NCBI GenBank assembly: GCA_002841685.1
Contig: PHAM01000045.1
Span: 1 to 15,404, forward strand
DNA from: Elusimicrobia bacterium HGW-Elusimicrobia-2
GTDB taxonomy: Bacteria; CG03
Length of the DNA: 15,404 nucleotides
Reading direction: 5' to 3'
Shown in pieces: positions 5,182 through 15,298 of this stretch. Both the position numbers and the translations under genes were made by a program. Each line of letters begins with the position of its first letter. The first letter of the stretch is position 1. The notes below the pieces were generated by a model. That model was not told where the DNA came from. It did not search any database and saw only the letters and a program-made list of their open reading frames with translations.

Positions 5182-7836
5182 ATGGTTAAATACCTGCAGC
5201 AAAAACTGGTAGGCGCAATATTTATATTGCGTTGTGGTTGTATGCGCAGACTAAAGTCTGCGGCTACATCTGCGGCTACCATTGTTATGCTTTCTGCAGG
5301 TATTTCTGCGCCTTTATTTGCGATAACTGCTGCAACTATTAACGTTTCTGTCAGGTCTTCCCATAACGTAGCACCGGAGAGGATTACTGACCTTACGGCC
5401 ACCACTGGTGGCGTTCAGGGCAGAATAGAGCTTTCATGGACAGCTCCTCAGACATACTTAGACATAAAAGTCGGGGATTACTACATCAGGTGGAGCTCGT
5501 CTTCCGTCAATGACGCGCCTTTTACGGGCGACACAACCGCGTGGTGGAACGCTTCGGGAGGACAGGACCTCTACGGCTGGATGAATGATCCCGGAGAGAA
5601 TCTGAATTTCACTGTCAACGGTCTCATCCCGGGTACCACTTATTACTTCGCTATTACGGCCGAGGACGAGTTCGGCAATATCAGCAGTTTTGACATAAAG
5701 ACCCAGGCGCTGGCACAGGCGAACGCAACGGCGGGGCTTGATTCAACAGTACCGGGTTCAATTCTCAATCTGACGGCTTTTACGGGAGATAATGAGGGAG
5801 AAGTGAAACTTTTCTGGACGGCTCCGGGCGATGACGGGACTTCGGGGCAGCTTACGGCGAATTTGCCGCCGAACTTTACACCTTATGTTTATAAAATGAA
5901 AGTGAGCGATTTCTCGCTTGCGCCTTACGGCGGTTCGGCGGATGCATGGTGGACAATGGCTCCGACGGTTAAACCTGTGCTGATATCCACGGCTCAAATT
6001 CCGGGGACGGAACAAACGGTTGTTATAACGGGTCTCACGCCGGGAGCGAAATTGTGGTTCGGTATCAAGGCCTATGATGACGGCGGCAACTGGTCATTTA
6101 CGCTCAATGTGTCCTCGGCGACGGTGTCTCCTGATGTGATGGGGCCCTCGCCTGTGACGGATATGGTCGTTGCAGACAGCAGCACAGCCAACGCCCTGAC
6201 TCTAAGATGGACGGCGCCGGGCGACGACGGAACGGCTGGCGATATTGTAAACGGAAGATTCAGGATACAGTATTCAACCTATGCCATAGCGTGGAGTTCG
6301 GCTTCGGCGCAGGTTGTTGTTTCAAGCTCAATGGCGAGTGGCGAAATACAGACTTATGAGGCCGGCTCTCTGTTAAGCGACAGCACATATTACTTCGTGC
6401 TCTGGACGGCGGATGACGGCCTCAACTGGTCGGCTCTGTCCAATACGGCTATGGGCTGGACGCTGGACAATATCGCTCCGGCGGCGCCAACGGGCGTGAC
6501 AGCCATAGCGGGAGACGCTTTTATTTCGCTCTCGTGGAACACTAATACGGAAGATGATTTCAGCGCTTATCAGATTTACAGGTCCACGGACAACAGCGTT
6601 TATACGAATATATTGAGCACGGACTCGCTGTCCTTCACGGACACTGGCCTTACGAATTTTACGACATATTATTATTACCTGACGGCGAAAGACGGCTCTG
6701 ACAACGAATCAGTTGCTTCGGATATGGTTTATGCTACGCCTAAGACAGTTATTACCGACTTTATAATTCCGGATGTGCCGGGCGGCGTTTATGGCGAATT
6801 CAGCGCGGACGCAAGTTCATTTACGCTGAGATGGTCGATGGTGACAATAAACAGCGACGGCAGCGCCTGCGTAGATTTTGCCGGTTACAGAATATACAGA
6901 GCCACGGGCGTGTGGGGGCCGTTTAATCTGATAAACCAGTCAACCATAGCGGCGAACACGGAATACACCTGCTTGCGTTCAACGCAGACGTATTTCTACG
7001 CCGTGACGGCATACGACAGCGCTTCGCCCGTCAACGAAAGCGGAATGTCAATGTGCGCGGACACAACGGATGAGTTAAATCTCTGGATTGCCGCCGACGG
7101 GGCCGCGGTGCGGATACCCGCGGAAATCGCGGCGGTTCTCAGGAACGGTTATGACGAAGACATAGTTATTTCAACGGATTCCAGAAAATCCGCCGACGAG
7201 AATTATCCTTCCGGCAGGGTGCTGAGAAGCTATAATTTTGAGACGCGCAAAAATAATTTTGCAAAAGACAAGGTGAATTTTGTCTTTGATAAATCGCTCG
7301 CTGAAATTAAGATTTATTACTATTACGACATTGTCACCGACAGCGACGGCGATCGCGTGATAAGCGCGCTTAAAGTCAAAGAGAGCGAGACGCGGAATTC
7401 TCTCGCTCTTGTGTGGTTCAACGGCGTTGAGTGGGTGAAAATCGGCGGCGAAGTGAACACCGCCGAAAACTGCGTTAGAATTCTGACGGATAAATTGGGC
7501 AGTTATCAATTGAGGGTGGCGCCGCGCGCTACGGCCTTCAGCGTCATAGACGGCCCGATCCCGAAGATATTCACGCCTAACGGCGACAATCTCAATGATG
7601 AGTGCTCATTCTATTATGATAATCCTAATAGTTTCGCGCCTTCCGGCGAGGTCTTTGACATAAGGGGCAGAAAGGTCTCGGATATGAAATTCGGCGGCAC
7701 GAGTTCTTCCGTTTCGGGTTCGCTGGTGTGGGACGGGAAAAATTCCGGCGGCCAATATGTTTCACCGGGCGTTTATATATGGCAGATAAAAGCGGAAGGC
7801 AAAGTTTATAACGGAACAGTGGTGGTGGCAAGATGA
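5182..7836 (+). CDS. Large surface protein: five fibronectin-III-like domains plus FlgD-like C-terminal domain, 884 aa
   Basis: The ATG at 5182 follows an AAAGG site. A second ATG at 5242 (M-R-R-L-K) also opens a perfect signal peptide (cleavage about residue 47 of the long form). A REP-like element forms this part. Five beta-sandwich domains follow at about 64-175, 190-315, 322-428, 432-520 and 529-628, several with fibronectin-III landmarks (L-S-W-T/N, L-R-W, Y-Y-F..T-A-D/E-D). Residues about 632-778 are a linking domain. Residues about 790-884 carry I-F-T-P-N-G-D-N-L-N-D, 'FDIRGRKVSDM', V-W-D-G-K-N-S-G-G, 'SPGVYIWQIKAEG' and end G-T-V-V-V-A-R. Such a terminal module is known from FlgD_ig and CHU_C-like cell-surface proteins and may be a sorting signal. 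The stop overlaps the next ATG (ATGA). Confidence 0.9.
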   Translation: MVKYLQQKLVGAIFILRCGCMRRLKSAATSAATIVMLSAGISAPLFAITAATINVSVRSSHNVAPERITDLTATTGGVQGRIELSWTAPQTYLDIKVGDYYIRWSSSSVNDAPFTGDTTAWWNASGGQDLYGWMNDPGENLNFTVNGLIPGTTYYFAITAEDEFGNISSFDIKTQALAQANATAGLDSTVPGSILNLTAFTGDNEGEVKLFWTAPGDDGTSGQLTANLPPNFTPYVYKMKVSDFSLAPYGGSADAWWTMAPTVKPVLISTAQIPGTEQTVVITGLTPGAKLWFGIKAYDDGGNWSFTLNVSSATVSPDVMGPSPVTDMVVADSSTANALTLRWTAPGDDGTAGDIVNGRFRIQYSTYAIAWSSASAQVVVSSSMASGEIQTYEAGSLLSDSTYYFVLWTADDGLNWSALSNTAMGWTLDNIAPAAPTGVTAIAGDAFISLSWNTNTEDDFSAYQIYRSTDNSVYTNILSTDSLSFTDTGLTNFTTYYYYLTAKDGSDNESVASDMVYATPKTVITDFIIPDVPGGVYGEFSADASSFTLRWSMVTINSDGSACVDFAGYRIYRATGVWGPFNLINQSTIAANTEYTCLRSTQTYFYAVTAYDSASPVNESGMSMCADTTDELNLWIAADGAAVRIPAEIAAVLRNGYDEDIVISTDSRKSADENYPSGRVLRSYNFETRKNNFAKDKVNFVFDKSLAEIKIYYYYDIVTDSDGDRVISALKVKESETRNSLALVWFNGVEWVKIGGEVNTAENCVRILTDKLGSYQLRVAPRATAFSVIDGPIPKIFTPNGDNLNDECSFYYDNPNSFAPSGEVFDIRGRKVSDMKFGGTSSSVSGSLVWDGKNSGGQYVSPGVYIWQIKAEGKVYNGTVVVAR
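5244..5267 (-). repeat. REP-like element inside signal-peptide codons
   Basis: On the - strand: GTAG, then CCGCAGACTTTAGTCTGCG, a 7-bp stem around the CTTTAG core found in the other REPs. It encodes R-R-L-K-S-A-A of the signal peptide, and GCGGCTAC is repeated at 5272-5279. Confidence 0.7.
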
Positions 7837-9413
7837 TGAAAAAAATAATTAAACAAATCATCGCTCTGACAGCGCTTCTGCTGTTTATGCCCGCTGCCCC
7901 CGTGCGGGTATTCGCTTCTTTTGAAGACCTGGGAGCGGGAGCAAGGGCCGCCGGTATGGCCAACGCTTTCACGGCGATAGCCGACGACGCTTATGCCGTT
8001 TATTATAATCCCGCGGGCCTTGCAGGGCTCAGAAATCCGGAGGTCGCCAGCTCCATGGGTAAGATGTTCATGAATCTTTCGGATAATTCGGATATAGGCG
8101 ACACGAATCTTATGATGGCCTATCCTTTGAAATTCGCGGTGCTGGGCATCGGAGTGAAGAATTTCGCGCTGGACGGCTATTACGGCGAAAACCAGTACGC
8201 TTTCGCGGCCGCCAGGCGCTTCAGATATTTTGATATGGGTGTTTCGCTCAAACAGATGACGGTGGAATACGGCTCCACAAAATACACGGCTAATGCCATA
8301 GATAATAACACAGGCCTTGCCGGGGGCGCGGGCGATCCCGTGTTTGATTCGGGCCTTTCCAAGAGCGGCTTCGGAGCGGATGCGGGCATACTGAAAAATT
8401 CGGGAGATATGCGTTTCGGTATCTCGCTCCAGAACATTGTCGCTCCGGATATGGGCATTAAAGAAACATATAAGCTGCCGCTGCGGATAAAAACAGGTAT
8501 GGCTCTGATAAAGCCCGGCTATAAACTGTCGGGAGAATATAATAAAGAAGATGCCGGCGGGGGTTTCAGGCTGGGCGCTGAAGTGAATGTTCTGACTTTC
8601 TTCAGATTGCGCGGAGGTTTTGAATACGGCCCGGACATCGCCAATATTTCGGCAGGGGCATCTTACAGGATGAATCTGTTCTCCTTTGATTACGCTTTCA
8701 CGCTTCCTCTGAGCGGTGTGGAGGGAACTCTGGGGAATCACTGGATAGGGCTTTCTGTCCGTTTCGGCGAGCTCCCCGAGCAGGTCATGGCCTCGGAGAA
8801 AACGATCCGCGAGCCCGGCGCGGCGCGCGAAAAGAAAGATCCGATGACAGAGAAGATCAGAAAACTAACGCTGAAAAATATGAAACGGCTTTATTTGTTA
8901 GCGCTCGCCGCCGAGAAGAGAGGAGAATATGAGAATGCGAGGCGGTATCACCAGCAGGTCATCTTTTATAATGTGCCGACTGTCGTCTCCGGCGACCCTG
9001 AGATAATGGAGCTTATCTCCAAATCCAGAGAGGCGCAGGATAAGCACGGGGACAGGGTGAGTTCCGCTCCCACCGATATAGAGCTTATGAAAAAACATTT
9101 CTCCGCGGCGACGGAATATTACAAAAACAAAGAGTATGAAAAAGCTGTGAAAGAATGGAAAAAAGTTCTTGAAATAGACCCTGCGCACAAATTATCGCTG
9201 GCGAAGATAGCGCTTGCCGAAGAGGAACTCGCCAAAGAGAAGGAACAGGATAAGCTGAAGAGAAAGAAAGAGCATTTTTCAAAAGCCACGGTATATTATA
9301 TAAAAGGCGAATATGCGCAGGCCATAAAGGAATGGCAGAAGGTGCTGGAGCTGGATCCGTCGCACGAGCTTTCGCGCCGGAAGATCATGCAGGCGCAGGA
9401 AAAATTAAAATAA
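7833..9413 (+). CDS. PorV/UPF0164-like outer-membrane barrel with TPR tail, 526 aa
   Basis: Residues 1-28 are a signal peptide. The mature N-terminus F-E-D-L-G-A-G-A-R-A-A-G-M-A-N-A-F, then A-D-D-A-Y-A-V-Y-Y-N-P-A-G-L-A-G-L, is the hallmark of the PorV/PorQ (UPF0164) family of FadL-like barrels. In type IX secretion PorV escorts cargo to the surface. Alternating beta strands continue to about residue 310. Residues about 340-526 contain helical repeats; the last two are clear TPRs (Y-Y-K-N-K-E-Y-E-K-A-V-K-E-W and Y-Y-I-K-G-E-Y-A-Q-A-I-K-E-W, each followed by V-L-E-[IL]-D-P). PorV proteins normally lack this tail, which would lie in the periplasm and offer a protein-binding platform. Its start overlaps the stop of the fibronectin-III gene, so the two are co-translated. 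Confidence 0.88.
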   Translation: MMKKIIKQIIALTALLLFMPAAPVRVFASFEDLGAGARAAGMANAFTAIADDAYAVYYNPAGLAGLRNPEVASSMGKMFMNLSDNSDIGDTNLMMAYPLKFAVLGIGVKNFALDGYYGENQYAFAAARRFRYFDMGVSLKQMTVEYGSTKYTANAIDNNTGLAGGAGDPVFDSGLSKSGFGADAGILKNSGDMRFGISLQNIVAPDMGIKETYKLPLRIKTGMALIKPGYKLSGEYNKEDAGGGFRLGAEVNVLTFFRLRGGFEYGPDIANISAGASYRMNLFSFDYAFTLPLSGVEGTLGNHWIGLSVRFGELPEQVMASEKTIREPGAAREKKDPMTEKIRKLTLKNMKRLYLLALAAEKRGEYENARRYHQQVIFYNVPTVVSGDPEIMELISKSREAQDKHGDRVSSAPTDIELMKKHFSAATEYYKNKEYEKAVKEWKKVLEIDPAHKLSLAKIALAEEELAKEKEQDKLKRKKEHFSKATVYYIKGEYAQAIKEWQKVLELDPSHELSRRKIMQAQEKLK

Positions 9414-9671: not shown

Positions 9672-9736
9672 GGGACGTCCTTAATATTATGAATGGGGGG
9701 CAAAAATTATGAAAAAATGTAGGACGTCCCCTTTTT
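9672..9736. repeat. GGACGTCC dyad element overlapping a gene start
   Basis: GGGACGTCCTTAAT at 9672 and GTAGGACGTCCCC ending at 9731, with TTTTT after it, form an inverted pair around the ribosome site and ATG of the next gene. A diverged copy lies at 12403-12461 and a fragment at 10139-10154. It is probably a small non-autonomous mobile element. Confidence 0.65.
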
Positions 9737-10137
9737 ATTTTGTTATGGCGGCGCTGATTACGGCGGCCGCGTTCCGGTCGCCGCTCTGCGGCGCCGCCGG
9801 AGGTTTTTCTTATCAGGCGGCTCCGAAGATAATCACGCCAAACGGCGACAAGTTGAACGATGTTTTCTTTGTGTTTTACAAGAATCTGGACAGCCAGAGT
9901 TCTCTTTCCGGAAAGATATTCAACCTGATGGGAATGAAGGTCGCCGATATGGCGAACACCGGCGGCGCGGGCGTGATCCTGACGGCGCCATCCGGCGGCT
10001 GGCACCCGCAGTCCGCGGATTCATGGGAAGGTTATTTTAAGTGGTCCCCATCAAGAGGCATTTCTCCTGGGATATATATATGGCAGATAGAGGCGGAAGG
10101 GCAGGTTTACACGGGCACGGTAGTTGTGGCGCAATGA
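9709..10137 (+). CDS. Secreted stand-alone FlgD-like C-terminal domain protein, 142 aa
   Basis: A G-rich site (9695-9700) precedes the ATG by 8 nt. The N-terminus (M-K-K-C-R-T-S-P-F-Y-F then a hydrophobic core to about residue 29) is a signal peptide whose first codons are the GGACGTCC repeat. Residues about 38-142 are one domain: I-I-T-P-N-G-D-K-L-N-D, 'FNLMGMKVADM', W-x-P-S-R-G-I-S-P-G-I-Y-I-W-Q-I, ending G-T-V-V-V-A-Q. This matches, feature for feature, the last 95 residues of the 884-aa protein at 5182. It is therefore essentially only the terminal module, an unusual arrangement for what is normally a C-terminal domain. It may be an accessory or a capping subunit. Its stop overlaps the next ATG (ATGA). 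Confidence 0.85.
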   Translation: MKKCRTSPFYFVMAALITAAAFRSPLCGAAGGFSYQAAPKIITPNGDKLNDVFFVFYKNLDSQSSLSGKIFNLMGMKVADMANTGGAGVILTAPSGGWHPQSADSWEGYFKWSPSRGISPGIYIWQIEAEGQVYTGTVVVAQ

Positions 10138-12359
10138 TTAAAAAGGGAACATCCCGCAGAATATTGACTGACAAATCTGTCAGCCGTGAATCGGGCAAGC
10201 GCATAATAGCGGGTTTCCAGCCATTTCTGTCTTTGTTTCTGTTACTGTCACACTGTCTTGCACCGTCCCCTATAAGGGCGGATTTTGAACAGCTCGGATG
10301 GTCGGCGGCATCCGCCGGTATGTCAAACGCGGCGATGTTTTCTAAAAAAATACCGTCGCTGTTTTATATCAACCCCGCCGCTTCGTCGTATTTGGAAGAT
10401 CCTGTTGTCGGTATGGAGTATGAAAATATGTATCCCGGCCTTTCCGACGCAAGCGGACTCAGCAGGAATATTTTCACATACACTCACAAACTGGAGGCCG
10501 CCGGGTGCGCCGCCGGATTTGAGAAATTTTCGCTGGATAATCTTTATTTGGAGAGCACTTATATAGTAAATTATTCAAAAAATTTCAGGGAAAGATGGTT
10601 TGCCGGAGGAAATTTAAGGGTTCTGCAGAAACACTACGGGTCAGACCGCTATACCCTGAACGCCATCAATGACAACGGCTCCGCTTCACTCCAGCCGGAT
10701 CCTCTTTTCGCGTTGAACGGAACCGGCATGACCGCGTTTACCTTGGACGCGGGTTTCACGCGGATTTTTTCCGGGGGCTGGTCGTTTTCAACAGCCGCGT
10801 CTTTTCTTACAAGCCCCGACACGTCTCTGGGCGGCACCTATAAGAGAAAACCTGACCTGTCGGCCGGGGCGGTTTACGAAACGGAATCCATAACGGTGGG
10901 TGAGACCTTGCGTTTTTCCGGAGGAGATTACTGGTTTGACACGGGTTTTGAGAAAAGAATGAAAACGCTGAAATTAAGAGGCGGACTGACCGCCGGAAGC
11001 GGCCAGTTACGCCTTTTTTCAGTGGGAGCGGGCTATCTGCATCTGCAGAAGGTTTCTTTTGATTACGCTTTTATCTATCCCCTCGCGGGCATCAAGGATT
11101 CTCTCGGCCGTCACAGGATGTCGGTGTCTTTTGTTTTCGGCGGCGGAAAATCGGACGAAGACCCCGATCGCGCGAAAATGGCCGAAAAAACAGACCTTGA
11201 AAAGATCCTGGAACAGGCGCGTCTGGCTTTCGCGGAAGAAAGGTGGAAAGACGCTGTAGAGCTCTCCCATAGAGCGCTTCTCATCGAGCCCGACAATGCG
11301 GCCGCGCTCGAGATTTATAATGGAGCTTCGGATAAGCTCAGGGTTTTGTTTGAACCGCACGCCGCAGCGGCCGCGCGCCTTCTGAACGAGGGGCGTTTCG
11401 CCGAGGCCGAATCAAAGTATAATGAGGCGCTGGCCCTCAATCCCTGGGAGGAGTCTCTGAGGGAATTGAGCGAAAAAATCAAGAAAATAACAGCCGTCAC
11501 GCCCCAGGCTCTGGGCGAGGGCAGGATCCCGCATCTGATGAGAGCCGCGGTGCGAGCCTATATGAACAAGGATCAGTCACTGTCGGTTAACGCGGCTGTT
11601 TATCTTGCGCAGCTGGACAAGTCTATCGTCGCTGAAAGCTTGCGGGACATAATAAAGGACGAATCCCCCGAAAAATACAGGGAACTGAGATTGATAAAGG
11701 GCATGAATCTTGTGGAGCAGAAATTATATTCGTCGCTCAAAAATATCTATAACGCGCGCTATGACCTGGCTATCATAGAATGCAACGAGGTGCTGGACCT
11801 GGAACCGCGCAATGTGCTGGCTCTGACGAGGCTGGGTTCGGCTTATTACGCTCTCGGGAAAAAAGAAAAAGGGATAGAGGTGTGGAGAGATGCCCTGAAA
11901 TATGATCCCGGCAATCGGGACATACTGGAATTCATGAAGATCCCGCCGGAGACTTCCATAAAAGAAGTTTATGAGACCAAGCAGAGCGAAGAGTCCGGCG
12001 CACTCTTAAAGATCAAAAAACTTTATCTTCAGGGCGCGGCCGCGGCGAAAAGAGGTGAGGCCGAGAAAGCCAAAGTGCTGTTTAAGGAAGCGTCGGAAGT
12101 TGCGGGCGGCGGGGATGAAGGGGAAGAATACAGGCGCAAATCAGAAGATGGCCTTAAGGAAGCCCGCCGTAGTATCGAGCAGGCGAACGAAAACACGCGA
12201 AGGCTTATGAAAGCCCATTATTCGGCGGGCATGTCTTATTATAAGAACGGCAGGTATTCCGAGGCCGTTTCCGAATTCAGGAAGCTCCTCTCTATCAAGC
12301 CCGGACATCAGCAAGCGCTTAAAATGATTGACTTATGCAGGCAAAAAATGGGAAAATAG
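10134..12359 (+). CDS. Second PorV-like outer-membrane protein with long TPR region, 741 aa
   Basis: I chose the ATG at 10134, which overlaps the previous stop; the frame remains open further upstream but that part only reads the previous gene out of frame. Residues 1-49 form a long signal peptide whose first residues (M-I-K-K-G-T-S-R-R) derive from a repeat. The mature start D-F-E-Q-L-G-W-S-A-A-S-A-G-M-S-N-A and N-P-A-A-S-S-Y-L correspond to the PorV-like protein at 7833, but the A-D-D motif is lost. The barrel-like part ends near residue 345. Then come several TPRs (for example E-R-W-K-D-A-V-E-L, G-R-F-A-E-A-E-S-K-Y, Y-D-L-A-I-I-E-C-N-E-V-L-D-L-E-P, and the last Y-Y-K-N-G-R-Y-S-E-A-V-S-E-F). 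It is probably a paralogue specialised for scaffolding rather than cargo passage. Confidence 0.85.
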   Translation: MIKKGTSRRILTDKSVSRESGKRIIAGFQPFLSLFLLLSHCLAPSPIRADFEQLGWSAASAGMSNAAMFSKKIPSLFYINPAASSYLEDPVVGMEYENMYPGLSDASGLSRNIFTYTHKLEAAGCAAGFEKFSLDNLYLESTYIVNYSKNFRERWFAGGNLRVLQKHYGSDRYTLNAINDNGSASLQPDPLFALNGTGMTAFTLDAGFTRIFSGGWSFSTAASFLTSPDTSLGGTYKRKPDLSAGAVYETESITVGETLRFSGGDYWFDTGFEKRMKTLKLRGGLTAGSGQLRLFSVGAGYLHLQKVSFDYAFIYPLAGIKDSLGRHRMSVSFVFGGGKSDEDPDRAKMAEKTDLEKILEQARLAFAEERWKDAVELSHRALLIEPDNAAALEIYNGASDKLRVLFEPHAAAAARLLNEGRFAEAESKYNEALALNPWEESLRELSEKIKKITAVTPQALGEGRIPHLMRAAVRAYMNKDQSLSVNAAVYLAQLDKSIVAESLRDIIKDESPEKYRELRLIKGMNLVEQKLYSSLKNIYNARYDLAIIECNEVLDLEPRNVLALTRLGSAYYALGKKEKGIEVWRDALKYDPGNRDILEFMKIPPETSIKEVYETKQSEESGALLKIKKLYLQGAAAAKRGEAEKAKVLFKEASEVAGGGDEGEEYRRKSEDGLKEARRSIEQANENTRRLMKAHYSAGMSYYKNGRYSEAVSEFRKLLSIKPGHQQALKMIDLCRQKMGK
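10139..10183. repeat. Repeat fragment and perfect dyad in signal-peptide codons
   Basis: AAAAAGGGAACATCC (from 10140) matches the complement of AGGATGTTCCCCTTTT at 12446-12461. CTGACA-AATC-TGTCAG (10168-10183) is a perfect 6-bp stem. Both are translated as the N-terminus of the 741-aa protein. Confidence 0.5.
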
Positions 12360-12402: not shown

Positions 12403-12461
12403 AAAAAGGGGATGTCCTTAATTAAATTGAGTATGAAAAAAAGTAGGATGTTCCCCTTTTC
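12403..12461. repeat. Second copy of the GGACGTCC-type dyad element
   Basis: AAAAAGGGGATGTCCTTAAT at one end and GTAGGATGTTCCCCTTTT at the other, with GAGTATGAAAAAAA between. It is laid out like 9672-9736, including ATGAAAAAA just before GTAGGA. Both possible starts of the FliG-like gene lie within it. Confidence 0.65.
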
Positions 12462-13815
12462 TATATCCAATAAGTATCGAAAGTCAACCCCTGGCACCAT
12501 TTTGTTTTTTTTGATTTTCGCGTCTTCATTGTTTGCCGATACCGCTACTATTGAAAATCAGGTTTCGCAGGTTCTGACAAAGGTTTTTAATCTGAGTAAT
12601 TTTTCCGTTTCCGTCAGAGAGGTCCGCTATACGGAAGTGGTGGATATAGGAAAAGATAAAAGGAATCTTCTGCCCGGCGTGCCGGTTGAAGAAAAACTAC
12701 AGGACATTTCCGATAAAAAACTGCTCGAGCGCCAGCGTCTCCTGATAACTCTCATCCTTGAGGAAGGTATTGCCGCCGAACTTGAAAAAAGGATAGAGGG
12801 TGTGGTGAGAGTCTCTCTGAGCCTGAACGATGAGGATTCGCTGAAAATAATAAAAGAGAGTTTTGCCGCTCAAAAACGCGGTGCCGCTACCGCCGACGGT
12901 TCCCCGGCCGCCGCTATGAGCGCGGGCGCGGCGATTATCTCATACGTGTCTCAGCCCCAGAACATGGTTCTTCTGACGGTAATATTGATCATATCCGTTT
13001 TCCTGTTCGGGCCGCTCAGATATTTTATGAAATATATGGCGCAATATTTCGCCAACGCCCGGCCCGGCGAGGCAACCGGGGTGAACATGGATGAAACTTC
13101 CTCCGTGCGCCAGATGCCGGTTAATCTCCTGAGCGCCACCCCCGAATCAAAGAAGACTGAGGAAAGCGAACAGCGGCCTTTCGCTTTCATCAATGACAAA
13201 AATATAGCCAATCTGGCCTTTTTGCTCAAAGAAGAAACTTCTGAAAGGATCGCCGAGGCGCTCGGCTTTTTGAAAGAGTCACTTGTGGAAAAATTCCTGC
13301 AATATTTTCCCGAAGAGAAACAATCCGACATAATGAGCTTTCTGGTTTATAAAAAGGAGCTGGATAAAGAGGATATTATTGACATGGAAAACTCAATCCG
13401 TGAAAAAATAAATTATGTTTCAGGCGGCCGCGAACAGCTCTTGAGCATGCTTGAAAATTCGTCCCGCCAGGTGCAGGAGCAGTTTCTCCGTCATATCGCC
13501 GACGAAGATCCTATAATGGCCTCGGAAATACGAAACAGCGTGTTCCATTTTGAGGATCTCTCCCGCCAGGGCACCCATGTGATACAGACGGTGCTGAGGT
13601 TTGTGAACACGAGGAATCTCGCGCAGGCGCTCCAGTTTTCCGAACAGGAGGTGCAGGACAGGATTTTCGCGGTGCTGTCGGAGGGGGCAAGAGAGATCGT
13701 CGTCGAAGAGCTTGAACTCCTGCCGTCAAATTCCGCCGCCAGCGACAGGGAAAAGAAGAATATCGTCGCCGTTATCAGGCGGCTGAAAGAAGCGGGCACG
13801 ATAGAACTTATATGA
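12412..13815 (+). CDS. Membrane-anchored FliG-like rotor protein with periplasmic N-terminal domain (FliF/FliG hybrid), 467 aa
   Basis: The ATG at 12412 has an A/G-rich site just before it; an ATG at 12433 would shorten it by 7. Residues about 27-42 are a signal peptide core (I-L-F-F-L-I-F-A-S-S-L-F-A). Residues 44-180 are periplasmic, with a segment weakly resembling a FliF ring-building motif. Residues about 184-204 are a TM helix. The rest is cytoplasmic. About 263-310 matches the FliG middle domain (N-I-A-N-L-A-F-L-L, F-P-E-E-K-Q-S-D-I). About 345-467 matches FliG from the second ARM segment to the end (E-D-P-I-M-A-S-E-I-R, F-H-F-E-D-L, V-I-Q-T-V-L-R-F-V, final R-R-L-K-E-A-G-T-I-E-L). Acidic residues E432/E433 align with E. 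coli FliG D288/D289. FliG normally is soluble and binds FliF; here the ring-anchoring part appears built in. MotA and MotB follow. Confidence 0.85.
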   Translation: MSLIKLSMKKSRMFPFSISNKYRKSTPGTILFFLIFASSLFADTATIENQVSQVLTKVFNLSNFSVSVREVRYTEVVDIGKDKRNLLPGVPVEEKLQDISDKKLLERQRLLITLILEEGIAAELEKRIEGVVRVSLSLNDEDSLKIIKESFAAQKRGAATADGSPAAAMSAGAAIISYVSQPQNMVLLTVILIISVFLFGPLRYFMKYMAQYFANARPGEATGVNMDETSSVRQMPVNLLSATPESKKTEESEQRPFAFINDKNIANLAFLLKEETSERIAEALGFLKESLVEKFLQYFPEEKQSDIMSFLVYKKELDKEDIIDMENSIREKINYVSGGREQLLSMLENSSRQVQEQFLRHIADEDPIMASEIRNSVFHFEDLSRQGTHVIQTVLRFVNTRNLAQALQFSEQEVQDRIFAVLSEGAREIVVEELELLPSNSAASDREKKNIVAVIRRLKEAGTIELI

Positions 13816-13825
13816 CGGAGGTAAT

Positions 13826-14587
13826 ATGGATTTAATGACACTGGCGGGTCTGGCGCTGGGAGCCGGAGCTGTCTGGTATGTGCTTTCGACCGGCGGCATT
13901 CTGGGGATCCTGTTCAATGCTAACGCCGCGGTGCTGGTTTTCGGCGGCGTCATCGGGGCGACTCTCATCACTTATCCCTGGAGACTGATCAAAAAACTTC
14001 CCAGATGCGTTTCTTTTATTTTTTTCACGCCGCGTTTCTTGTCAAATGAAGATATAATAGAGGTGTTTGAGAGTATCGCGAAAAAGGCCAGAAAAGACGG
14101 GATAAGCCAGGGTCTCCTGGATGAAATACCTCCCGATAATTTTTTTCAGCGCGCGATAGGCCTGCTCATTGACGGCTTTGAGTCGGATTTCATAAAGGAA
14201 ACGCTTTATAACGAGATATCATATTTTAAAAAACGGCATAATCAGATATCGGATATTTTCAAATCAATGGGGGCTTACGCGCCCATCTTCGGGCTTCTCG
14301 GCACGCTCATAGGTGTCGTTCAGGTGCTGCGGAATCTTTCCGATCCGGCGAGCATGGGCGTTTCCATGGCCATAGCCATCACGACGACATTTTACGGCAT
14401 ATTCTCCACGAATTTTTTGTTTCTTCCCACGGCCGGGAAATTATCCGTGCTCACAGATACGGAAGCTCTCACCAAGCAGCTCATAGTGGAAGGCACGATA
14501 TCTCTTCAAAAAGGCGAAATACCGTCTGTCGTGAGAAAACGCTTACAGGCCTTTCTGGCGGATTCAGACAAGGCCTCAAAAAAATAA
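13826..14587 (+). CDS. motA: MotA/PomA-family stator subunit, 253 aa
   Basis: GGAGG lies 5 nt before the ATG, 10 nt after the FliG-like gene. Four helices are visible: about 4-20, 30-50, 147-168 and 180-202, with a long cytoplasmic loop between the second and third. The family prolines are present as Pro153 (A-P-I-F-G-L-L-G-T-L-I-G-V-V) and Pro201 (F-L-P-T-A-G-K-L). The loop has K-K-A-R-K-D-G, where Arg89 matches E. coli MotA Arg90; the family Glu98 position is a Leu. The length is typical. It should form the A5B2 ion-driven stator with the MotB that follows. Zorya ZorA is an alternative family, but this protein lacks its long C-terminal tail. Confidence 0.93.
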   Translation: MDLMTLAGLALGAGAVWYVLSTGGILGILFNANAAVLVFGGVIGATLITYPWRLIKKLPRCVSFIFFTPRFLSNEDIIEVFESIAKKARKDGISQGLLDEIPPDNFFQRAIGLLIDGFESDFIKETLYNEISYFKKRHNQISDIFKSMGAYAPIFGLLGTLIGVVQVLRNLSDPASMGVSMAIAITTTFYGIFSTNFLFLPTAGKLSVLTDTEALTKQLIVEGTISLQKGEIPSVVRKRLQAFLADSDKASKK

Positions 14588-15298
14588 ATGGAACAGATAA
14601 ACGGCGCCGAAACCGAAACCTGGCGCGAACTGTCTCCTGATACGGTAATTGAGGCTGAGTCGGAAATGCCGGTTGAGGAATCTCCCGTCTGGCTGACGAT
14701 CTATTCCGACCTGATGACAAACCTTATGCTTTTTTTCCTTATGCTTTACGGTATAACGCGCATGAGCGTTGACGCCAAAACCACAATACTGGATTCCATA
14801 GCTTCGCATTTTGAGGGCGCGGTGAAACGGGATGCGCTGCGTGAGTCTTTTGAGAAAACGGCCTCGGATATAAAAAACACCGCCGTCGAGGCTCTCGGCA
14901 ATCCGGTGATCTCAAAAGTGATAATAGAGCCGTCGGGCTACAGGATAATACTTAAAGCGCCGGTTATGTTTGATTCCGCCGACGCGTCAATAAAAAAAGC
15001 GGCAATGAAGGATTTGAAAGAACTGGCGTCTTTTATAAAAACAATACCCAATGTCATTGAAATCGCGGGGCATACCGACGATATACCCGTTGAAGGCACG
15101 AAATGGCAATCAAACTGGGAGCTTTCTCTTTCCCGCGCGGAAAGCGTCAGGCGATTTCTGACGGGATGCGGTATCACAGCGAAAAGATTGTGCATTTCCG
15201 GATACGGTTCCACCCGGCCCATTTATCCCAATGACAGCTTTGAAAACAGGCTGCGCAACCGGCGCATAGAGATAATCGTTATGGAAACTGGCAGATGA
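14588..15298 (+). CDS. motB: MotB-family stator subunit with OmpA-like peptidoglycan-binding domain, 236 aa
   Basis: The ATG directly abuts the motA stop codon with no clear ribosome site, so coupled translation is likely. Residues 1-34 are cytoplasmic and acidic. The single TM helix (about 36-56) begins W-L-T-I-Y-S-D-L-M-T-N-L-M, with Asp41 as the ion-binding aspartate (E. coli Asp32). Residues about 60-105 are the linker/plug region. About 108-234 is the OmpA/MotB domain: G-H-T-D-D-I-P, N-W-E-L-S-L-S-R-A, S-G-Y-G, and N-R-L-R-N-R-R-I-E-I-I. It anchors the stator to peptidoglycan. The full set of catalytic and anchoring residues suggests a working motor. Confidence 0.94.
   Translation: MEQINGAETETWRELSPDTVIEAESEMPVEESPVWLTIYSDLMTNLMLFFLMLYGITRMSVDAKTTILDSIASHFEGAVKRDALRESFEKTASDIKNTAVEALGNPVISKVIIEPSGYRIILKAPVMFDSADASIKKAAMKDLKELASFIKTIPNVIEIAGHTDDIPVEGTKWQSNWELSLSRAESVRRFLTGCGITAKRLCISGYGSTRPIYPNDSFENRLRNRRIEIIVMETGR

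Follow-up and report, generated by a model that had tools for sequence, protein, structure and literature searches.

A FliF-FliG fusion protein encoded with MotA and MotB in an Elusimicrobia genome: a putative flagellum-independent rotary motor

The window, by which we mean the whole 15,404-nt stretch of DNA analysed from Elusimicrobia bacterium HGW-Elusimicrobia-2, carries a three-gene operon in which a protein joining parts of FliF and FliG is followed by MotA and MotB. The stop codon of the fusion gene is separated from MotA by 10 nt, and MotB follows MotA with zero spacing. The fusion ORF could alternatively begin at an in-frame ATG at position 12433. The operon, the parts of the fusion protein and the upstream genes are as follows.

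5182..7836, + strand: secreted fn3 protein with a CHU_C-like C-terminal sorting domain (Pfam/NCBIfam matches)
7833..9413, + strand: second PorV-family barrel with TPRs (PorV_fam 1.4e-16, under the curated cut-off)
9709..10137, + strand: small secreted protein with a CHU_C domain (Pfam)
10134..12359, + strand: PorV/PorP-like outer-membrane barrel with TPRs, encoded directly ahead of the rotor gene; the mechanical ORF opens at 10041 (Pfam/NCBIfam, gene-order survey)
12412..13815, + strand: FliF(RBM3)-TM-FliG(M,C) fusion, 467 aa, proposed one-protein rotor (ORF, Pfam, profile and structure matches)
12412..12537, + strand: N-terminal leader with signal peptide, residues 1-42 (hydropathy; AF2 pLDDT <50)
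12532..12867, + strand: periplasmic RBM3-like domain, residues 41-152, alpha-beta-beta-alpha-beta (AF2; FliF S-rings as top structural matches; hhalign against true FliF)
12637..12723, + strand: reduced loop at the beta-collar position, residues 76-104 (AF2 model, alignment)
12670-12684, + strand: near-invariant motif LPG(V/I)P inside that loop
12955..13017, + strand: single transmembrane helix, residues 182-202 (hydropathy, AF2)
13210..13419, + strand: FliG middle domain, residues 267-336 (Pfam FliG_M 1.2e-4, structure match)
13492..13809, + strand: FliG C-terminal torque domain, residues 361-466 (Pfam FliG_C 1.7e-24, structure match)
13705-13710, + strand: acidic pair E432/E433 of FliG_C, at the place of E. 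coli D288/D289 (alignment)
13826..14587, + strand: MotA, flagellar-type stator A subunit, 253 aa (Pfam MotA_ExbB and NCBIfam)
14588..15298, + strand: MotB with TM helix, proton-carrying Asp (SDLMTNLM), plug and OmpA-like peptidoglycan-binding domain, 236 aa (Pfam, hydropathy)

The contig ends 106 nt beyond MotB, while genes for a histidine kinase, a response regulator and a further MotB come next in the operon of a sister genome (G003); the window operon is therefore likely to be a truncated copy. The DNA at the contig end (15317-15404) resembles an interspersed repeat (GTCATTCTGAGGAGCGTTAGCGACGAAGAATCT) that was absent from every other locus compared, and it is possibly the reason for the operon being cut. 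At the other side of the window, three overlapping ORFs (521-2951) have repeated DNA stretches of 46-47 nt in common, 70-83% alike, and are probably intergenic repeats read as ORFs. A frameshift or contamination artefact in the fusion gene was rejected, since many independent MAGs carry the uninterrupted fused frame in a syntenic position; chance was excluded as well, because 11 further genomes of the phylum have the same fused frame open.

A profile search with the fusion retrieved FliG M-C with an E value of 2e-59, and structure comparison of the whole AlphaFold model with FliG gave a Z score of 18.2. The FliG_M score of the window copy is under the Pfam curated cut-off, whereas relatives score over it. 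FliG_N is not present in the window fusion, and the FliG equivalog model TIGR00207, whose match starts at model position 106, scored 82 bits and did not reach its cut-off of 226.7. Of 21 proteins, 19 carry E-E as the acidic pair in the torque helix; the D288/D289 numbering of this pair in E. coli FliG is common background knowledge. The fusions do not conserve basic residues at the positions equivalent to E. coli R281 and R297, and the K264 equivalent is Q in the window fusion. The FliM-binding EHPQ, carried by T. maritima FliG in the profile alignment, is not kept in the window fusion, which has EETSER instead, and the position is variable in relatives; this loss fits the absence of FliM/N described below. 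The M and C folds with the acidic torque pair show, by homology, that this part of the protein is FliG. In a tree of the FliG M-C region, every fusion fell on one side of a branch; however, support was weak (68/72) and several branches were long, so no claim can be made on a single origin of the fusions or on their origin inside or outside flagellar FliG.

Hydropathy analysis of the fusion revealed only a signal-peptide peak at residues 25-47 and a TM-helix peak at 179-202, which places residues 43-180 in the periplasm and the FliG part in the cytoplasm. Pfam YscJ_FliF_C / FliF_C (PF08345) matched the two other fusions of the genome (6.7e-5 and 2.7e-4) as well as fusions across the phylum. When 15 fusion N-termini, with the window copy first, were aligned by hhalign with seven true flagellar FliF proteins from Omnitrophota, the match was collinear across the RBM3 region (98.1%, E 6.7e-14). 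The same N-terminal profile retrieved Salmonella, Vibrio and other FliF structures together with SpoIIIAG from the PDB at E values of 3e-5 to 0.003, Salmonella FliF being at 3e-5. In the AlphaFold models, the domain is built as helix-strand-strand-helix-strand, the RBM3 order given for Vibrio FliF (PMC11481574). Structure comparison of the whole fusion model retrieved FliF rings at residues 40-152 (Z 9.2); with the domain alone, 14 FliF entries ranked first (Z 10.9 to 9.3), against 8.8 for the best non-FliF entry. The AF2 confidence for this domain was moderate (mean pLDDT 71). RBM1, RBM2 and the first FliF TM helix are absent from the window fusion by hydropathy and AF2, RBM3 following the signal peptide directly. 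Sequence profile and fold, and not layout only, thus show by homology that the periplasmic domain is the ring-building RBM3 of FliF. A GVPG motif is present in the corresponding insertion of some true FliF proteins; its parallel with LPG(V/I)P is tentative, as the profile alignment fails to pin the two motifs together.

An earlier note on this DNA, made without database searches, had placed the three genes and their 10-nt and zero spacings, and these held exactly in the ORF calls. Its description of the fusion (signal peptide, periplasmic domain, one TM helix, FliG middle and C-terminal domains) was likewise borne out by hydropathy and Pfam. The FliF-like character, which was a guess there, was supported by sequence profile and AlphaFold fold and was refined, the FliF part being RBM3 only, with no RBM1/RBM2 or first TM helix.

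The window MotA matched MotA_ExbB in Pfam at 5e-23, and its best NCBIfam matches were to MotP/MotA/PomA (about 1e-53), with TolQ at only 2e-4. An R90-like residue is retained in this protein, but E98 is not. The window MotB matched MotB_plug (7.5e-10) and OmpA (2.7e-19) in Pfam. A channel Asp, a plug and an OmpA domain separate flagellar stators from generic ones (PMC12505986; FIT class), and by homology the window pair meets these criteria and has a flagellar-type MotA. The dedicated stator proposed in the earlier note is thus supported.

A second MotB occurs in some related operons. In the C-type operons described below it has T, S or N at the channel Asp, while MotB1 keeps the Asp (all seven aligned pairs), and the second MotB in the B-type operon of G003 has N at this position. 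In one Omnitrophota genome (G252), both MotBs keep the channel Asp. The Asp-less proteins might form an asymmetric B1B2 stator or serve as a non-conducting anchor; they were found at the following positions of C-type and G003 B-type operons.

L005:5236-5913, Asp-less second MotB
L030:939-1613, Asp-less second MotB
L037:21-650, Asp-less second MotB
L043:6680-7351, Asp-less second MotB
L045:12632-13276, Asp-less second MotB
L047:3-728, Asp-less second MotB
L049:7770-8414, Asp-less second MotB
L029:9072-9878, Asp-less second MotB

Flagellar genes were searched for in the host genome, a draft MAG that is 96% complete. No match was obtained there for FlhA, FliM/FliN (PF01052) or flagellin (PF00669), all of which were detected in flagellated controls (four for FlhA). 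A separate FliF or FliG was not found either, since the three FliG_C and two FliF_C matches of the genome all lie within fusions. FlhA was missing from all 16 genomes of the phylum, with positive controls. As far as these genes go, the host probably has no flagellum; rod, hook and other axial genes were outside the searches.

The host genome contains three fusion operons. FliG_C is present in 12 of the 16 genomes of the phylum, whose MAGs were deposited mostly as 'Elusimicrobia bacterium' and also as Caldiserica and Sumerlaeota, and it always lies within long frames of 384-740 aa. Gene order is conserved across the phylum in three types.

A-type (C79, L004): PorV-TPR barrel, fusion with C-terminal TPRs, ~1200-aa coiled coil, MotA, MotB
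B-type (window): fn3/CHU_C proteins, two PorV-TPR barrels, fusion, MotA, MotB; G003 adds the histidine kinase, response regulator and second MotB
C-type (C48, L005): GAF protein or barrel, fusion, MotA, MotB1, MotB2

The coiled-coil protein between rotor and MotA in A-type operons (L004:2225-6073; homologues in L033, L038 and L041) has no signal peptide and is weakly conserved. Downstream of the A-type motor of the host genome, two genes after MotB, a PilZ-domain protein is encoded (L004:9903-10346, 8.6e-11), which is a possible candidate for a c-di-GMP brake. In C-type operons of the window's family, the position just upstream of the rotor is occupied by a GAF-domain gene instead of the PorV barrel (L005:1894-2355, L030, L034, L040).

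The survey was extended to 384 genomes of a second phylum, that of an Omnitrophota MAG. Ordinary FliG of 339-369 aa was found in nine of them, and two (G251 and G252) encode a signal peptide, RBM3-like domain, TM helix and FliG within one protein. FlhA is missing from these two genomes and present in all four flagellated Omnitrophota tested. A PorV/PorP-like barrel with TPR lies directly upstream of the fusion in G251, and MotA and two MotBs stand in succession on another contig in G252. Omnitrophota hits of ~470 aa (L116-L118) were rejected as FliG, their sequence resembling MgtE transporters. A scan of the genome contig collection with an A-type profile matched the fusion only in this phylum of the host, the remaining matches being TPR; the patterns of the scan fell in the acidic linker and TPR, so absence elsewhere is not demonstrable. 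The mixed fusion alignment was too diverse for a collection-wide scan.

The observation in the earlier note that no other flagellar gene was in view therefore held genome-wide for FlhA, FliM/N, flagellin and for FliF_C/FliG_C outside fusions. A flagellar locus without separate fliF and fliG in the same genome, which would have refuted its proposal, was not found. The survey it suggested, of genomes with the fusion and no flagella, yielded the 12 genomes of this phylum, none with FlhA, and the two Omnitrophota genomes lacking FlhA.

Of the 26 fusions, 17, from both phyla, are preceded by a PorV-TPR gene whose end lies no more than 500 nt away, namely 10/10 of A-type (those with upstream DNA), 4/5 of B-type, 2/9 of C-type and 1/2 in Omnitrophota. 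The window barrels score under the PorV_fam cut-off, whereas an A-type relative exceeds it (145.8 vs 90). From gene order, the barrel at 10134..12359 is inferred to be the likely partner of the motor, and the fn3/CHU_C-like protein at 5182..7836 may be surface cargo. The output of the motor is placed at the outer membrane because PorV-TPR genes lie upstream and CHU_C proteins lie beside the window operon; the weak linkage in C-type operons means that this connection is not universal.

We propose, with a modest margin of confidence, that the operon encodes a rotary motor that is driven by ions and independent of a flagellum, has a single protein as its rotor and is coupled via the periplasm to an outer-membrane machine. 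Ring formation, rotation and output are inferred. Copies of the fusion would assemble through RBM3 into a membrane ring displaying a FliG torque ring without FliM/FliN, and peptidoglycan-anchored stators would act on the conserved acidic helix of FliG_C to rotate this ring. Since no export gate or flagellin was found, the torque would be taken up in the periplasm, where the TPR domain of the upstream PorV-like barrel is its most likely recipient. It may serve surface-protein movement (gliding, adhesin transport) or power the export of proteins with CHU_C-type C-termini. A classical switch is not expected because FliM/N are absent; control may be exerted by the associated histidine kinase/response regulator of the sister genome or by the PilZ protein near the A-type operon, and the three paralogous motors may have different tasks. 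The homology to motor parts is strong, and the domains, their order, the stator type, the conservation and the absence of the tested flagellar genes are shown. The earlier note suggested that ring and torque face are provided by a single protein and that the motor might be a rotary one without a flagellum. This is supported, with rotation itself inferred, and is refined in that the operon is one of three paralogous motors and is tied to a PorV-like gene. The weakest step is the output, as there is no evidence on what is moved. Against the proposal stand the lack of any experiment, the restriction to monomer models (no ring or rotor-stator contact model), the non-conserved R281/R297 equivalents, the change of K264 to Q, a MotA without E98, the weak C-type PorV linkage and the draft state of the MAG.

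Three other explanations were weighed. That the operon encodes an ordinary flagellar rotor with fused FliF and FliG, or the relic of a lost flagellum, is suggested by the flagellar type of FliG M/C, FliF RBM3 and MotAB, and by Chlamydia, where a truncated FliF-FliG fusion persists alongside few flagellar genes (PMC4768692). However, it is largely refuted and very improbable: the tested flagellar genes are missing from the genome and FlhA from the whole phylum sample, and decay is at odds with the three paralogous operons being intact and with the conservation of torque acids and MotB Asp across several families. The fusion might instead act as a ring or scaffold to which the stator transmits conformational strokes, with no continuous rotation, as proposed for Tol, Exb or Agl. 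The lack of a FliM/N ring and the loss of the R281/R297 equivalents speak for such an envelope machine, and the Asp-less second MotB and outer-membrane partners recall envelope-spanning energizers; but no role other than that of a rotor torque domain is known for FliG_C, its fold and acidic pair are retained, and MotA/MotB are nearest to flagellar stator models and not to TolQ/ExbB, so this reading appears unlikely.

It remains possible that the motor powers type IX-like protein export across the outer membrane and not motility. PorV/PorP-like barrels and CHU_C-type C-termini surround the operon, and in Flavobacterium the MotAB-like GldLM motor drives both secretion and gliding (PMC8986121). 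On the other hand, the SprA_N search gave no match in the data searched, although no control genome gave one either, and the barrel gene is missing from several operons. PorV-family barrels and CHU_C-like domains are also widespread outside T9SS, as is generally known.

The proposed rotary motor shares with the flagellar rotor and stator (FliF MS-ring, FliG, MotA/MotB) the RBM3 and FliG M/C folds, the acidic torque pair, a flagellar-type MotA and a MotB with Asp, plug and OmpA domain. It differs in that FliF and FliG are one protein without RBM1/RBM2, the first TM helix and FliG_N, that no FliM/N, export gate (FlhA) or flagellin was found, and that an outer-membrane barrel gene is linked. Chlamydia, thought to be non-flagellated, also has a natural FliF-FliG fusion (PMC4768692), but this keeps other periplasmic domains, has no SpoIIIAG-like RBM3 and contains FliG_M only, and Chlamydia has FlhA; the window fusion keeps RBM3 and FliG_C, with MotAB in its operon, and MotAB are not among the few flagellar genes given for Chlamydia in that paper. 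Engineered FliF-FliG fusions of Salmonella and Vibrio have the identical domain order, although they are artificial, join full-length FliF and FliG and reside in flagellated cells (PMC4768692, PMC11481574); those of Salmonella still assemble and rotate, and that of Vibrio forms 34- or 35-fold rings. GldLM of type IX secretion/gliding (PMC8986121) and AglRQS of Myxococcus are MotAB-related ion-driven motors whose action, without a flagellum, is on the outer membrane or the cell surface; unlike the present system, they have not been described as having a FliG or FliF rotor, and their A/B subunits belong to other subfamilies. The ring-building fold is shared with SpoIIIAG (Z 6.7) and the injectisome ring protein PrgK (Z 8.2), but these match less well than FliF and have neither a FliG domain nor a stator.

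A non-flagellar FliG motor was not described in the open-licence literature searched, which did not cover bioRxiv preprints, and the truncated Chlamydia fusion was the only natural precedent found. The parts are thus known and the assembly is new. A bolder reading, which taken as one joint claim could fall either way, is that these operons represent the first known class of flagellum-free, FliG-based bacterial rotary motors. Each would combine a one-protein membrane rotor (S-ring domain, TM helix and torque ring) with its own flagellar-type stator, sometimes asymmetric with an Asp-less MotB, and would drive an outer-membrane machine; specialised paralogues would exist in one phylum, and the class would occur also in Omnitrophota.

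The flagellar rotor has so far been known only within the flagellum. If the proposal is true, a stand-alone rotor-stator pair in one operon would mean that the torque module is separable, and it would provide a minimal system for FliG and MotAB rotation without switch proteins. It would also bear on the origin of the flagellum, the motor being either older than the flagellum or detached from it and reused, which the weak FliG M-C tree leaves undecided. Finally, it would add to the known ways in which force is generated on the surface of bacteria, here in lineages for which no cultured members were found.
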